Positions 2,332 to 7,960 of a DNA stretch of 33,997 bases are shown here, in pieces. Positions within the stretch are counted from its first letter, which is position 1. Each line of letters opens with the position of its first letter. A program made the translations under genes and the position numbers. Under the pieces are notes generated by a model that had not been told where the DNA came from, did not search any database, and was given only the letters and a program-made list of their open reading frames with translations. The DNA comes from Thermoleophilia bacterium (GTDB taxonomy: Bacteria > Actinomycetota > Thermoleophilia > Gaiellales > Gaiellaceae), in the NCBI GenBank assembly GCA_025929425.1, contig JAICME010000016.1, positions 1 to 33,997 on the forward strand, written 5' to 3'.

Positions 2332-3384
2332 ATGACCTTGCGGGTCGCTCTGCTCGCGCCGATCTCCTGGCGGGTGCCGCCGCGGCAATACGGTCCGTGG
2401 GAACAGTTCGCCTCCCTCTTGACCGAGGGCCTGGTCAAGCGCGGTGTCGATGTCACCTTGTTCGCCACCGCCGACTCCGTCACGACCGCGCGCCTCGTTG
2501 GCACGGCGCCGACCGGCTACTCCGAGGATTCGGCACTACATGCGAAGGCGTGGGAGGCGCTGCACGTCTCGGCGGTGTTCGAGCAAGCGGACGAGTTCGA
2601 CCTGATCCACAACAGTTTCGACTTCCTGCCGCTGACCTACAGCGGCCTCGTCGACACCCCGGTCCTGACCACGATCCACGGGTTCTCCTCGGAACAGATC
2701 GTTCCCGTCTTCGAGAAGTACAACAAGAGCGGCTACTACGTGGCGATCAGCGATGCCGACCGGCACGAGCGCCTCGACTACGTCGCCACGATCCACCACG
2801 GCATCGACCTCGCCCAATTCGAGCTCGAGGAGAAGCCGGGCGACTACCTCCTGTTCTTCGGGAGAATCCATCCGGACAAGGGGACGGTGGAGGCGATCGA
2901 CGTCGCCGAGCGCACCGGCTTGCCGCTCGTGATCGCCGGGATCGTCCAGGACCGGGGCTACTTCGAGCGGCTCGTTGAACCGCGGCTCAACGGGAAGCGC
3001 GTGAGCTACGTCGGCCCGGTCGGGCCAGACCGCCGCGGACGCCTGCTCGGCGGCGCGCGGGCATTGCTGCACCTCGTGAACTTCGACGAGCCGTTCGGCT
3101 TCAGCGTCGTCGAGGCGATGGCCTGCGGGACACCGGTCATCGCGACGCGGCGCGGCTCGATGGCAGAGATCATTAATCACGCCCAGAACGGCTTTCTCGT
3201 CGATACCCGGGAGGAGGCCGTTGCAGCCGTCGATGCTTCGAGCTCCCTCGACCGGGTAGCCGTGCGCTCATCGGTGGAAGAACGCTTCGACGCCGAGCGG
3301 ATGGTGGACGACTACCTCACCGTCTATCGGCGCGTCGTCGAGCTCCACCGCGACACGCGGATCGGTATCGAGGCCCTCGGCTGA
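2332..3384 (+). CDS. GT4-family (group 1) glycosyltransferase
   Basis: MTLRVALLAPISWRVPPRQYGPWEQFASLLTEGLVKRGVDVTLFAT; FGRIHPDKGTVEAIDVAERTGLPLVIAG; DEPFGFSVVEAMACGTPVIATRRGSMAEII: classic GT-B/GT4 C-terminal motifs. Confidence 0.9.
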   Translation: MTLRVALLAPISWRVPPRQYGPWEQFASLLTEGLVKRGVDVTLFATADSVTTARLVGTAPTGYSEDSALHAKAWEALHVSAVFEQADEFDLIHNSFDFLPLTYSGLVDTPVLTTIHGFSSEQIVPVFEKYNKSGYYVAISDADRHERLDYVATIHHGIDLAQFELEEKPGDYLLFFGRIHPDKGTVEAIDVAERTGLPLVIAGIVQDRGYFERLVEPRLNGKRVSYVGPVGPDRRGRLLGGARALLHLVNFDEPFGFSVVEAMACGTPVIATRRGSMAEIINHAQNGFLVDTREEAVAAVDASSSLDRVAVRSSVEERFDAERMVDDYLTVYRRVVELHRDTRIGIEALG

Positions 3385-4595
3385 GCCCGGGATCGCGGCG
3401 GGAGCTGTTCCGGGTCGGTGTCAACTACTGGCCGGCGACCAGCGCGATGGGCTGGTGGTCGAGCTTCGATCCGGCGGAGGTTGGAGCCGACTTTGCGCGG
3501 ATCGCCGCTTGCGGTCTCGACTCCGTAAGGATCTTTCTCAGCTGGGAAGACTTCCAGCCAACCCCCACCCGGGTCGACGGCGAGATGCTCGCACGGCTCG
3601 TCGTGGTCGCCGATCTCGCAGCCGGGCTCGGCCTCCAACTGATCCCCACCCTGTTCACCGGCCACATGAGCGGAGTGAACTGGATCCCTCCCTGGGCGCT
3701 CGGGGGCTCGGACGGAGATCCGCGTTTCCGGGTCGTCTCCGGTGGCACAGTCGTTGGGCGAGGGCTTCGCAACTGGTACAGCGATCCGGCAATCGGAGAC
3801 GCTCAGGTTCTCCTGGCAGCGGAGGCTGCCGGCGCGCTCGCCGGGCACGAGGCGGTTTGGGCGTGGGACCTCGGTAACGAGAACTCCAACTGCGTCGTCC
3901 CGCCGAACAGGTCATCGGCACGCGCATGGCTCGTCCGCCTCAGCTCGGCGGTCCGCAGTGCCGACGAGACCGCGCTCGTCACCGTCGGGTTGCACATGGA
4001 AGACCTCGAGGAGGATCGCCGGCTTGGGCCACGGCAAGCCTCCCAGGTATGCGATCTCCTTTCGATGCACGGCTACCCGATCTACGCAAGCTGGGCGCAC
4101 GGTGCCAGGGACGAACTACTGGTCCCGTTCCTGGCTCGTGTGACCCGCTGGCTCGGGGACGGTCGCGATGTGCTGTTCAGCGAGTTCGGTCTGCCGACCT
4201 ATCGCCGTGGCGATCCGCATGAGCAGAGGGCCGGCGCGGAGCCTCTGGTCGACGAAGAAGCGGCGGCTGTATACACGACCGCGGCGCTCGAGGGGCTTCG
4301 TCGTGCCGGATGTCTCGGCGCATTGCTCTGGTGCTACTCCGACTACGCCCCAGCGCTGTGGGAGAACCCGCCTTTCGATCTCGCTCCCCACGAGCGCACC
4401 TTCGGACTGTGGCGGATCGACGGCTCACCGAAACCAGCCGTCGCTGCCATCTCGGCCTTCGTCGGCGCCGAACGTTGCACCCGGGGACACGCAGACGCAT
4501 GGATCGACATCGACCGCGACGAGTTCCTCCTCGACCCGAATACGCAGTTGCCCCGCCTCTACCGCCGCTATCGGGAGCAGTCGCGTCCCCTATGA
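3381..4595 (+). CDS. GH5-like / clan GH-A glycoside hydrolase (cellulase/mannanase superfamily)
   Basis: FRVGVNYWPATSAMGWWSSFDPAEVGADFARIAACGLDSVRIFLSWEDFQP; AVWAWDLGNENSN (acid/base Glu in NE); VLFSEFGLPT (nucleophile Glu). The homologous-looking N-terminus extends upstream of the first ATG (3447); a CTG at 3381 overlaps the GT4 stop (CTGA) and is the proposed start. Confidence 0.8.
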   Translation: MSPGSRRELFRVGVNYWPATSAMGWWSSFDPAEVGADFARIAACGLDSVRIFLSWEDFQPTPTRVDGEMLARLVVVADLAAGLGLQLIPTLFTGHMSGVNWIPPWALGGSDGDPRFRVVSGGTVVGRGLRNWYSDPAIGDAQVLLAAEAAGALAGHEAVWAWDLGNENSNCVVPPNRSSARAWLVRLSSAVRSADETALVTVGLHMEDLEEDRRLGPRQASQVCDLLSMHGYPIYASWAHGARDELLVPFLARVTRWLGDGRDVLFSEFGLPTYRRGDPHEQRAGAEPLVDEEAAAVYTTAALEGLRRAGCLGALLWCYSDYAPALWENPPFDLAPHERTFGLWRIDGSPKPAVAAISAFVGAERCTRGHADAWIDIDRDEFLLDPNTQLPRLYRRYREQSRPL

Positions 4596-5561
4596 CCGAC
4601 TGAGTGCGCTCGCCTCCATCTCGCGTGGTGCGGCGACGACGGCGTCGAGCAGGTCTCCCAGTCGTGCGGTGGCGAGGCAGATGGAGCTGTCGGCGGCACC
4701 GTAATAGAGGCGGATCTCGTCGCTGACCTCGTCGTGGAGAAGTCCGGAGGGGAAGACCACGTTCGGAACGTCGCCCGTCCGTTCGTAGTCGGCGAGAGGG
4801 GCGAAGATCCAGGTGGGTAGGCGTCGGAGGACGCGGGTCGGTTCGTCGAGGTCGAGCAGTGCCAGGCCCACGCGATACAGCTCTCCGGCCACGGTGTCCT
4901 TGACGCCGTGGTAGAGGAGCAGCCAGCCGTGCTCGGTGCGGAGCGGCGGGGGACCGATGCCGATCCGTAACGAGTCCCACCAGGCGCCGGCGCGAGGTTG
5001 AAGCACCTGTTCGGGGACGCTCCAGCTTACGAGGTCGTCCGAGCGGGAAAGCACGATCTCGCCGTGCCCGCCGCCGAACTCGGTCTTGGGACGATGGAGC
5101 AGCACCCAGCGCCCGTCGATCCGGTACGGCAGGAGGGCGGCGTTCTTGTCCTCGGGGTGCCTGATCACGCCACGACGCTCGACGGTGGCGAAGTCCTCGG
5201 TCGTAGCGAGAAACACAGCAGGCCCTGCCGGGCCATATGCCGTGCACGTGATTGCCCAATGCCCTAGTTCCTCGACCCACACGACCCGCGCGTCCTCGAA
5301 CCCCCATTGCTCACTTGCGATCCCCTCGGCGGGGGCGAGCAGCGGCTCGGGCTCGATTGTCCATCCGTCGACGCCGTTCGTCGAGCGGGCCACCGTGAGG
5401 TGTGAGATCCCTCGGCGGTCTTCGACGCGCGCGAGCAAGACGGTCTCGCCGTCGCGCACGGCAGCCGCCGGGTTGAAGACGGCGTTCACGGGATAGGGCC
5501 AGTCGCCGGCGGTCAGGATCGGGTTGCCAGGGTGCCGCTCGAAGAGCTCGAGCGCGCTCAT
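4590..5561 (-). CDS. GH130-family beta-mannoside phosphorylase-like protein
   Basis: FERHPGNPILTAGDWPYPVNAVFNPAAAVRDGETVLLARVEDRRGISHLTVARS; WGFEDARVVWVEELGHWAITCTAY; DKNAALLPYRIDGRWVLLHRP; GAWWDSLRIGIGPPPLRTEHGWLLLYHGV; FPSGLLHDEVSDEIRLYYGAADSSICLATA: GH130 five-bladed propeller signature. ATGA overlap with the upstream GT fusion. Confidence 0.88.
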   Translation of the reverse strand: MSALELFERHPGNPILTAGDWPYPVNAVFNPAAAVRDGETVLLARVEDRRGISHLTVARSTNGVDGWTIEPEPLLAPAEGIASEQWGFEDARVVWVEELGHWAITCTAYGPAGPAVFLATTEDFATVERRGVIRHPEDKNAALLPYRIDGRWVLLHRPKTEFGGGHGEIVLSRSDDLVSWSVPEQVLQPRAGAWWDSLRIGIGPPPLRTEHGWLLLYHGVKDTVAGELYRVGLALLDLDEPTRVLRRLPTWIFAPLADYERTGDVPNVVFPSGLLHDEVSDEIRLYYGAADSSICLATARLGDLLDAVVAAPREMEASALSRS

Positions 5562-7807
5562 GCCGCAGCCGGCTCGAGCGCCGCCTCGCGGTCGGCCGCC
5601 CGGACACCGGCGGCGTCGAGGAGCAGTGCGGCGTGGTGGAAGGCGAGCGTCGACTCGGCGCCTTCGTTGTCGTTCAGCGCGTCGCTGCCGAGCCCGTCAC
5701 TGCAACCGCCCGTGGCGAAGTCGTAGAGCGGCTTCTGCAAGCGGTTGCGGCCCAGGAACCACTCGAATGCTCGAATCGCCCGGACTCCGTGCTCGGCCTT
5801 GCGTGTGGCAGCGAAGGCACTCAGCTCGGCTTCGACGAGCGCCGCGGCCTCGAGCGGCTGCTCGTCGCCGGCGCCCGGCGCTTGCTCGCCCCGTCGGCGG
5901 CCGTGGTGACCCGGGAGCCGGAGCGTGTTCTGATCGAGCCCGCACTCGTCGCCGAGCCACCGCAGCGACTCGAGGCCAATCTCGGTGAGCTCCGGCCGGC
6001 CGAGCGCGCTGCCGCCGGTGAGGAGTGCCTGCGACAGCCGCGCATTGTCGTAGCTGAGCACATCCTCGAACCAGCACCAATCCTCCGAGCAGGTGCGCTC
6101 GTACGCCTCGGCGAGCTGCTCGACGAGCCGTTCGAGCTGCCGGTGCGCGGCCGGCTCGAGCCGGTCCGTGTCGAGGCGGGAGAGACCGAGCACGGCATAT
6201 GCCGCCGTTCGCAGCGATATGTCATCGCCGAGCGTGGCGACAAGGTGGTCGAGGAGATCGCGGGCCGGTCGCACCACGGCGGGGATCCACGCCGTCGCCA
6301 GGATGTCCCCCAGCGCCCAGATCGAGCGTCCCACGTGGTCGCCGATATGCGGCTCGTCGAGCCAGCGACGGTCGTAACCCATGAAGTTGTGCATCCCCCC
6401 GTCCTCAGCGGCTGCCTGAAGGAAGGCGAGCGCGCGGTAGAGCTTCGACGTCCAGGTCAGCTCTTCGCCGCGTTCTGCGAGTGCGAGCGAGACGACCGCC
6501 AGGCGGGCGACGTCGTCTACGCAGTAGCCGCTGCTGCGGTTGGGAATGATTCCGTGCGCGTGCTGCACGATGCCGACGTCGTCGGCGAGCGTGAGCAGAT
6601 GGTCGGTCCGTAAGCTCGTCAGGTGCAGGTCGGCGACGCCGGCGGGCCGTCGCTGCGGCGCAAGCTCGGCAGCTTCCTGCAAGACGCAGGCCGTCGCCTC
6701 TGCGACGGCCGGCCAGGCGAGCGTCGAACCGATCCGTCGTGCCTCGGTCCGCGCCGCCAGCAGCGTGTCCGGCCGCTCGATGTAGCTGCAGACGGCATCC
6801 ACCAGCGCTTCCGGATCGCGGAACGGCACGAGAAGCCCGGCCCCCGAGGCGAGCATGTCCTGCGCGTACCAGTAGGGCGTGGAGACGACGGCGCAGCCCG
6901 CCGCGATTGCGAAGGTGAGCGCGCCGGAGGCGATCTGCTCCCGACTCCCGTAGGGCGTCACGAAGACGTCGGTCGCAGCGAGCAGATCCGCGAGCTCGTC
7001 GATCGACAGGAACCGGTCGTCGAACTCGACATGGGCGGCGAGCCCGAGCTCGAGCACGCGCCGCTCGAGCATGAGCCGATACCGCTCCCCCTCCCGGCGC
7101 GCGACATCCGGATGGGTGCGCCCAGCGATCGTGTAGACGATCTCCGGGTGCCGTTCGATCATCGCCGGCAGCGCTTCGATCACCGTCTCCAGGCCCTTAC
7201 CGGGTGAGATCAAACCGAATGTGGAGAGCCGGAAAGGATCATCGACGGCAGACGAAGCAGACCGCGATTCCCGAAGGTTCCTCGCGGCGCGCTCCGCGAT
7301 CCGCAGCGGCGCTCCATGCGGCACCACACGGACTTTCTGCTCCGGGCAAGCGCCCGACTCGACCAGCAAGCGGAGCGCCGTGTCCGTCATCACGATCACG
7401 AGCTCCGCCTCGGCGCACAGGTCCGTCAGCACTTCCGCCTGGTGGGGCGTGGGCTCGGACAGAACCGTGTGCAGGGTCACCACGAGAGGCTGCGCCAGCT
7501 CCTGCGCAAACGACAGCACGTACTCGCCGTCTCGGCCGCCGAAGATCCCGTACTCGTGCTGAAGCAACACGACATCGACGTCGAGCCGCCCCAGCATCCG
7601 GGCCGTCCGGACATAGTCCCCACGCACGGCCTGCGCGATCGTCGCGAGCAGGCCCCGCCGCTGCGGAGCCGACGGTTCGTGCACGACCGCGACGAGATCG
7701 ACGGCCGTCACCCTGCCTGTGCCGGTCAGCGTCGCTCGCAGGTCGGCTGAAAAGGTGCCGATGCCGCAGGCACGCGGCGGGTAGGTGGAGACGATCGCCG
7801 CGCGCAT
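5558..7807 (-). CDS. Two-domain protein: N-terminal GT4 glycosyltransferase, C-terminal six-hairpin/(alpha/alpha)6-like domain
   Basis: N-term MRAAIVSTYPPRACGIGTFSADL ... STFGLISPGKGLETVIEALPAMIERHPEIVYTIAGRTHP ... DVFVTPYGSREQIASGALTFAIAAGCAVVSTPYWYAQDML; C-term GYCVDDVARLAVVSLALAERG ... MHNFMGYDRRWLDEPHIGDHVGRSIWALGD ... LSYDNARLSQALL ... GGCSDGLGSDALNDNEGAESTLAFHHA. Confidence 0.85.
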   Translation of the reverse strand: MRAAIVSTYPPRACGIGTFSADLRATLTGTGRVTAVDLVAVVHEPSAPQRRGLLATIAQAVRGDYVRTARMLGRLDVDVVLLQHEYGIFGGRDGEYVLSFAQELAQPLVVTLHTVLSEPTPHQAEVLTDLCAEAELVIVMTDTALRLLVESGACPEQKVRVVPHGAPLRIAERAARNLRESRSASSAVDDPFRLSTFGLISPGKGLETVIEALPAMIERHPEIVYTIAGRTHPDVARREGERYRLMLERRVLELGLAAHVEFDDRFLSIDELADLLAATDVFVTPYGSREQIASGALTFAIAAGCAVVSTPYWYAQDMLASGAGLLVPFRDPEALVDAVCSYIERPDTLLAARTEARRIGSTLAWPAVAEATACVLQEAAELAPQRRPAGVADLHLTSLRTDHLLTLADDVGIVQHAHGIIPNRSSGYCVDDVARLAVVSLALAERGEELTWTSKLYRALAFLQAAAEDGGMHNFMGYDRRWLDEPHIGDHVGRSIWALGDILATAWIPAVVRPARDLLDHLVATLGDDISLRTAAYAVLGLSRLDTDRLEPAAHRQLERLVEQLAEAYERTCSEDWCWFEDVLSYDNARLSQALLTGGSALGRPELTEIGLESLRWLGDECGLDQNTLRLPGHHGRRRGEQAPGAGDEQPLEAAALVEAELSAFAATRKAEHGVRAIRAFEWFLGRNRLQKPLYDFATGGCSDGLGSDALNDNEGAESTLAFHHAALLLDAAGVRAADREAALEPAAA

Positions 7808-7810
7808 GCG

Positions 7811-7960
7811 CTAGCGCGCCGGCCGTGTCCGCGTCGACAGGCTGAGCGCCTGCATCCGCTGCGGCAGCTGCAGACCACGGCGCACCGACCCTGCTTTTCG
7901 GAGCCTCCCGCTGGTGGCAGTGCGCAGCCGGTCGAGTACCCGCTTCAGGCTCTTTCTCAT
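7811..7960 (-). CDS. Small highly basic 49-aa ORF upstream of the GT fusion
   Basis: MRKSLKRVLDRLRTATSGRLRKAGSVRRGLQLPQRMQALSLSTRTRPAR; ATG at 7960 preceded by AGAGGGAG-type Shine-Dalgarno (GAGAGGGAGCGACATCATG); stop lies 3 nt before the start of the GT fusion (7807). 15 Lys/Arg and one Asp. Confidence 0.5.
   Translation of the reverse strand: MRKSLKRVLDRLRTATSGRLRKAGSVRRGLQLPQRMQALSLSTRTRPAR

Follow-up and report, generated by a model that had tools for sequence, protein, structure and literature searches.

Four genes at one end of a 33,997-nt stretch of Thermoleophilia DNA (GenBank assembly GCA_025929425.1, contig JAICME010000016.1; the whole stretch is called the window here) encode two GT4 glycosyltransferases, a GH130 mannoside phosphorylase and a GH5-like hydrolase. 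We read this cassette, with a probability of about 0.6, as an intracellular module that makes and recycles a mannose-containing glycan. Its core is a gene pair, a GT4-(alpha/alpha)6 fusion and GH130, that stays together across about 20 phyla without a recurring importer and that adjoins genes of mannose metabolism in several lineages. The enzyme families are known; their recurring intracellular arrangement is uncharacterised. No description of the cassette was found in the literature searched, although a network analysis of GH130 published in 2020 (Microb Genom, cited in PMC8950772) may mention it. The passages of PMC11131427 and PMC5352709 in which GH130 is mentioned with GT4 do not describe it.

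A conserved pair of fusion and GH130

As contig C21, the window belongs to a metagenome-assembled genome (MAG) of 2.7 Mb that is 86% complete. The four open reading frames (ORFs) form two tight convergent pairs, GT4a (P0001; 2332-3384) and the GH5-like gene (P0002; 3381-4595) on the plus strand, and the fusion (P0004; 5558-7807) followed by the GH130 gene (P0003; 4590-5561) on the minus strand. Read on the sequence, a CTGA stop/start overlap at 3381-3384 joins the first pair and an ATGA overlap at 5558-5561 the second, while the stops of the GH5-like and GH130 genes overlap by 6 nt at 4590-4595. An earlier sequence-only reading had placed four genes at 2332-7960; all of these ORFs are present and their positions and all three joints are as it described, except for the far end, since the fusion starts at 7807 and the remainder up to 7960 is a separate ORF of 49 codons (7811-7960). 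It had also expected no signal peptides, and the N-termini of the cassette proteins are indeed not Sec-like: none has a hydrophobic segment there, the best 19-residue Kyte-Doolittle means being 0.2-1.0 for segments that start within the first 25 residues.

A search of genome_contigs with P0004 yielded at least 592 stretches encoding relatives, the best 80 of which come from many phyla and include, as the closest named relatives of the window, Thermoleophilia MAGs such as Candidatus Gaiellasilicea. The sample used below comprises 88 non-redundant fusion loci, drawn from the top P0004 matches and from loci of the window's order. The order loci were retrieved with a GH130 query, so that adjacency to GH130 is partly built in for them; the loci from the P0004 search were not. 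A GH130 gene lies within 6 kb of the fusion in 77 of the 88 loci. Eight of the 11 others have a short flank cut by the contig end and three have full flanks (L072, L102, L108). GT4a recurs in 21 loci and the GH5-like gene in four, so the proposed co-occurrence of all four families is very strong for the fusion with GH130 and fails for the four-gene set, and GH5 is rejected as a core component. Within the window's order, 24 of 129 genomes carry the (alpha/alpha)6 domain (AA6) and all 24 also carry GH130, which occurs alone in a further eight (Fisher p = 1.4e-19, a nominal value since the genomes are related). Conservation across phyla together with this co-occurrence excludes chance. The fusion loci span, among other phyla, Actinomycetota, Chloroflexota, Rhodothermota, KSB1, Bipolaricaulota, Myxococcota, Bacillota, Planctomycetota, Acidobacteriota, Spirochaetota, Bacteroidota, Pseudomonadota, Deinococcota, Fusobacteriota and Lokiarchaeota.

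A Pfam scan of 104 other neighbour ORFs detected no recurrent importer, flippase, polymerase, export or lipid gene, in keeping with the sequence-only reading, which had seen no importer or secretion genes. Beyond a few common families no neighbour recurs (BPD_transp_1 appears in 3 of the 104), and in the window itself no transporter lies between or directly beside the cassette genes. The cassette thus looks like a self-contained module and not a locus for polysaccharide export or utilisation. This bears on an alternative in which the enzymes assemble and turn over a glycoconjugate (a glycolipid, glycoprotein or envelope polysaccharide) at the cytosolic face, with GH130 and GH5 recycling failed products. 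Most GT4 enzymes serve envelope glycans, and GT4b, the cassette GT4 other than GT4a, resembles the EpsE, MshA and PimA profiles. The lack of any recurring flippase, polymerase, export or lipid gene and of hydrophobic N-terminal segments nevertheless makes this alternative unlikely.

The same neighbourhoods bear on salvage, in which GH130 and GH5 would degrade imported beta-mannosides to mannose-1-phosphate, to be passed through GDP-mannose to the glycosyltransferases. Such a route has been proposed for the GDP-mannose cluster of Thermoanaerobacter sp. X-514 (Teth514_1785-1796), which holds the same enzyme classes: GH5, two GH130 phosphorylases of the Glu type, a mannose-1-phosphate guanylyltransferase and a GT4, with recycling of mannose-1-phosphate proposed there (PMC4264767). 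That cluster, however, includes five ATP-binding cassette (ABC) transporter genes. The window cassette has no ABC sugar importer, no transporter recurs beside its relatives, its glycosyltransferase carries a fused (alpha/alpha)6 domain, and the conserved partner of its GH130 is this biosynthetic fusion. We consider salvage quite improbable.

GH130 enzymes are usually taken to break down mannans from the diet or a host. A large clade of uncharacterised GH130s has here a biosynthetic enzyme as its dominant genomic partner and no importer, which suggests that an endogenous mannose glycan is common; no isolation of such a glycan was found in the literature searched.

GH130 and its mannose context

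P0003 (323 aa) matches the GH130 family (Pfam PF04041, 3.6e-50; 171 bits against a cut-off of 26) and has the active-site residues E89-D90, K139, R199, H218 and Y229. Lys/Arg at positions 139 and 199, His218 and Tyr229 are retained in the core cassette GH130s, as expected of a phosphorylase.

The markers of linkage specificity diverge. The best PDB score is that of the beta-1,4 enzyme TM1225 (9e-54), with beta-1,2-mannoside enzymes at about 125-150 bits, and the NCBIfam models for beta-1,2-mannobiose phosphorylase reach 3.2e-56 at best, yet stay below cut-off. GH130_1 and GH130_2 carry Tyr ahead of the catalytic Asp and the remaining GH130s Glu (PMC4264767). P0003 and all 67 of 67 core cassette GH130s have Glu at this position, where three solved beta-1,4 enzymes have Tyr; the core proteins also have Lys where beta-1,4 enzymes carry Arg, matching all four solved beta-1,2 enzymes. 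Assignment to GH130_2 from the top PDB score alone is therefore rejected: the GH130_2 beta-1,4-mannooligosaccharide phosphorylases (TM1225, RaMP2, Uhgb_MP) give the best PDB scores but combine Tyr-Asp with Arg. The beta-1,2-mannoside phosphorylases and Uhgb_MS (Lin0857, Teth514_1788/1789, 9erg) share the Glu-Asp/Lys pattern of the 67 core proteins, yet belong to a separate clade. The core cassette GH130s form a clade of their own (68 members, support 0.74) that is sister to the beta-1,4 group GH130_2 (0.965) and, despite the matching residues, is not nested among the beta-1,2 enzymes. Since the clade sits beside the beta-1,4 group, the residues that it shares with the beta-1,2 enzymes may be ancestral and do not by themselves fix the linkage.

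In 18 of the 88 loci the short GH130 is replaced or accompanied by a longer form of about 450-530 aa, extended at its N-terminus (for example L099:12244-13749, L121:15141-16607, L116:12287-13750 and L153:10259-11608). It is monophyletic (support 1.0), its closest solved relatives are beta-1,2-mannoside phosphorylases, and two of its active-site positions hold Gly and Gln. With Gln at the position of R199, the long form may behave differently.

Within the window the mannose assignment comes from GH130 and GH5 alone; the mannose basis suggested by the sequence-only reading is supported by genes clustered with the pair in Sphingomonadales, Hyphomicrobiales and Firmicutes. The gene order in Sphingobium yanoikuyae is groES-groEL-ManC/PMI-PMI-fusion-GH130-phosphomannomutase. 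A mannose-6-phosphate isomerase gene overlaps the fusion gene in Devosia and Sinorhizobium, the order in Sphingomonas paucimobilis is ManC/PMI-fusion-GH130, with dnaK, grpE and a gene for a universal stress protein nearby, and two Firmicutes loci (L101, L107) have a fused mannose-1-phosphate guanylyltransferase-phosphomannomutase beside or inside the cluster. The Sphingobium GH130 is of the long form, so that the mannose argument from this locus crosses a subfamily boundary; the GH130 of L107 is of the core form. A possible link to stress comes from three plasmid neighbourhoods. The window's own genome encodes a phosphomannomutase/phosphoglucomutase homologue (472 bits) and an ORF resembling a fused nucleotidyltransferase-mutase. 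On two Rhizobium plasmids (L150:11658-12791, L160:11658-12788) a gene of the AGE epimerase/isomerase family directly follows the fusion and GH130, which suggests an epimerisation step in some cassette variants.

Transferases, fused domain and the proposed glycan

GT4a (350 aa; Pfam PF00534, 2.7e-24) is a cytosolic protein of the GT-B type whose closest solved relative is the glucosylsucrose synthase TeGSS (7fg9; 1.7e-79, 43% identity). The catalytic residues Y20, E75, R178, K183 and E253 are kept (aligned with Y18, E74, R179, K184 and E256 of TeGSS), and the similarity to TeGSS (PMC9909042) thus covers the catalytic Tyr, Glu, Arg and Lys but not the acceptor site. Neither P0001 nor the cassette GT4a proteins keep the residues that form the sucrose site of TeGSS (W10, Y70, R117, N122 and W254); among orthologues the replacements are uniform for W10 (Ser/Ala), R117 (Phe), N122 (Ile) and W254 (Phe). 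GT4a therefore probably retains the chemistry of TeGSS and probably uses a different acceptor; its identification as a glucosylsucrose synthase is rejected. The conserved catalytic residues and the 43% identity would also fit synthesis of a compatible solute of the glucosylsucrose type, with GT4a glucosylating sucrose or a small acceptor like it. Given the replaced sucrose contacts, the failure to find a sucrose-phosphate synthase above cut-off in the window's own genome, and the GH130 and mannose genes that it leaves unexplained, such a role is highly improbable.

The fusion (749 aa) consists of a GT-B half (about 6653-7807; Pfam GT4 4.6e-15 over residues 196-344) and a C-terminal domain of 364 aa (5561-6652, minus strand) that matched no Pfam family. 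AlphaFold models this domain as a confident helical barrel (predicted local distance difference test 92.6, predicted template modelling score 0.92). Foldseek places it closest to 7tem (YPO2471; 1.6e-13), followed by cellobiose/GlcNAc 2-epimerases and GH76; similarity to the AGE/cellobiose 2-epimerase fold is at E ~1e-7 with template modelling scores of 0.6-0.7. The AGE-superfamily epimerases and YPO2471 thus share the (alpha/alpha)6 fold, but kinship in sequence extends to 7tem only. Across 64 aligned sequences 23 columns are invariant, with Asp, Arg, Trp and Asn prominent among them (D46, D47, D105 and E333 in domain numbering are invariant), and none of them is His, H18 and H31 being conserved at 90% or more. 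The pattern fits a site that binds or cleaves glycans and lends no support to an epimerase, so that a simple epimerase is set aside, though not fully. A fused domain family that has no Pfam entry is hereby identified. In an Alicyclobacillaceae MAG (L087:7920-10205) the fusion is split at the domain border into two adjacent ORFs, which supports the two-domain reading. The only solved sequence relative, 7tem_A, is an uncharacterised putative exported protein of Yersinia pestis, and the function of YPO2471 may offer a clue to that of the domain.

The GH5-like protein (404 aa) matches no Pfam family. Its relatives in the PDB are of the GH5 type, namely the endo-beta-mannanase 7bob (best, 1.5e-22), 6gvb, an exo-beta-1,4-mannosidase and GH5_18 enzymes, and the acid/base E167 (LGNE) and nucleophile E268 (EFG) are invariant in the alignment of its relatives (A3). 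Its relatives and the two glutamates mark it as a putative beta-mannosidase or mannanase. The conserved N-terminus contains no ATG, GTG or TTG; the CTG at 3381, an unusual start codon, is the sole plausible start ahead of the conserved FRVGVNYWP segment, and the relative L036 has the same CTGA overlap. A GH5 gene beside the Deinococcus cassette was considered as the same enzyme and rejected (BLAST E 0.012, signal-like N-terminus).

The gene set, its conservation, the fold, the active-site residues and the genomic link to mannose genes are observed; from them we infer a donor, a product and its linkage, a direction of flux and a physiological role as reserve or stress glycan. The two GT4s would transfer from nucleotide sugars, GDP-mannose being the likeliest donor for at least one of them, to give a cytosolic oligosaccharide or glycoside with mostly alpha bonds. 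The (alpha/alpha)6 domain probably acts on the chain that its fused GT4 makes, by binding or trimming it. GH130 would add beta-mannosyl residues to the same glycan or, likelier in net flux, phosphorolyse them to mannose-1-phosphate, which could re-enter GDP-mannose without ATP or enter glycolysis through phosphomannomutase and isomerase. GH5, where present, would trim beta-mannosides out of the reach of GH130.

Several points weigh against this scheme. Mannose genes adjoin the cassette in a minority of lineages only. A search for the ManC beta-helix found no ManC-type guanylyltransferase in the window's own genome, which is 86% complete. TeGSS, the nearest solved relative of GT4a, takes UDP-glucose as donor (PMC9909042). 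The bonds also fail to match in a simple way. GT4 enzymes retain the configuration of the donor and would give alpha bonds, and GH130 and GH5 act on beta-mannosides; the transferases and GH130/GH5 of the cassette probably have different bonds as targets and so probably form no simple one-bond cycle. The make-and-break cycle of the sequence-only reading is thus unlikely in its literal form. That reading's observation of the cassette stands, and its interpretation is supported in part. Either GH130 would build the beta part from mannose-1-phosphate by reverse phosphorolysis, or the glycan would have mixed linkages.

The earlier comparison with the mannogen of Leishmania shares the idea of an intracellular mannose polymer, turned over there via mannose-1-phosphate by enzymes of GH130-like fold (PMC8950772); GT108, however, is both transferase and phosphorylase on beta-1,2-mannan, whereas the cassette has separate GT4 and GH130 families. 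A function as reserve or compatible solute, like the likeness to mannogen itself, is one we infer. It is a tentative and rather doubtful extension that the GT4-(alpha/alpha)6 synthase and its dedicated GH130 clade make and remobilise an unrecognised intracellular storage or protective glycan of mannose in about 20 bacterial phyla and some archaea; if true, the breadth of this glycan would compare with that of glycogen or trehalose. Sphingobium, Dactylosporangium, Catenulispora and Anaerolinea offer cultured hosts for a search for the product.

Upstream ORF and a second cassette type

The small ORF directly upstream of the fusion (7811-7960, minus strand; read from the sequence) encodes a basic protein of 49 aa. 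It has a good ribosome-binding site and ends in TAG, followed by a 3-nt gap and the ATG of the fusion. L034, L037 and L038 have similar small ORFs (about 41-49 aa, MRKSLKRVLDRLR...) ahead of the fusion; L036 and L039 do not.

A second cassette type occurs in five loci of the window's family (L048, L052, L053, L054, L062). Its fusion is divergent and in some cases split; one GH130 shows about 50% identity, and another, with a low score, is encoded on the opposite strand.

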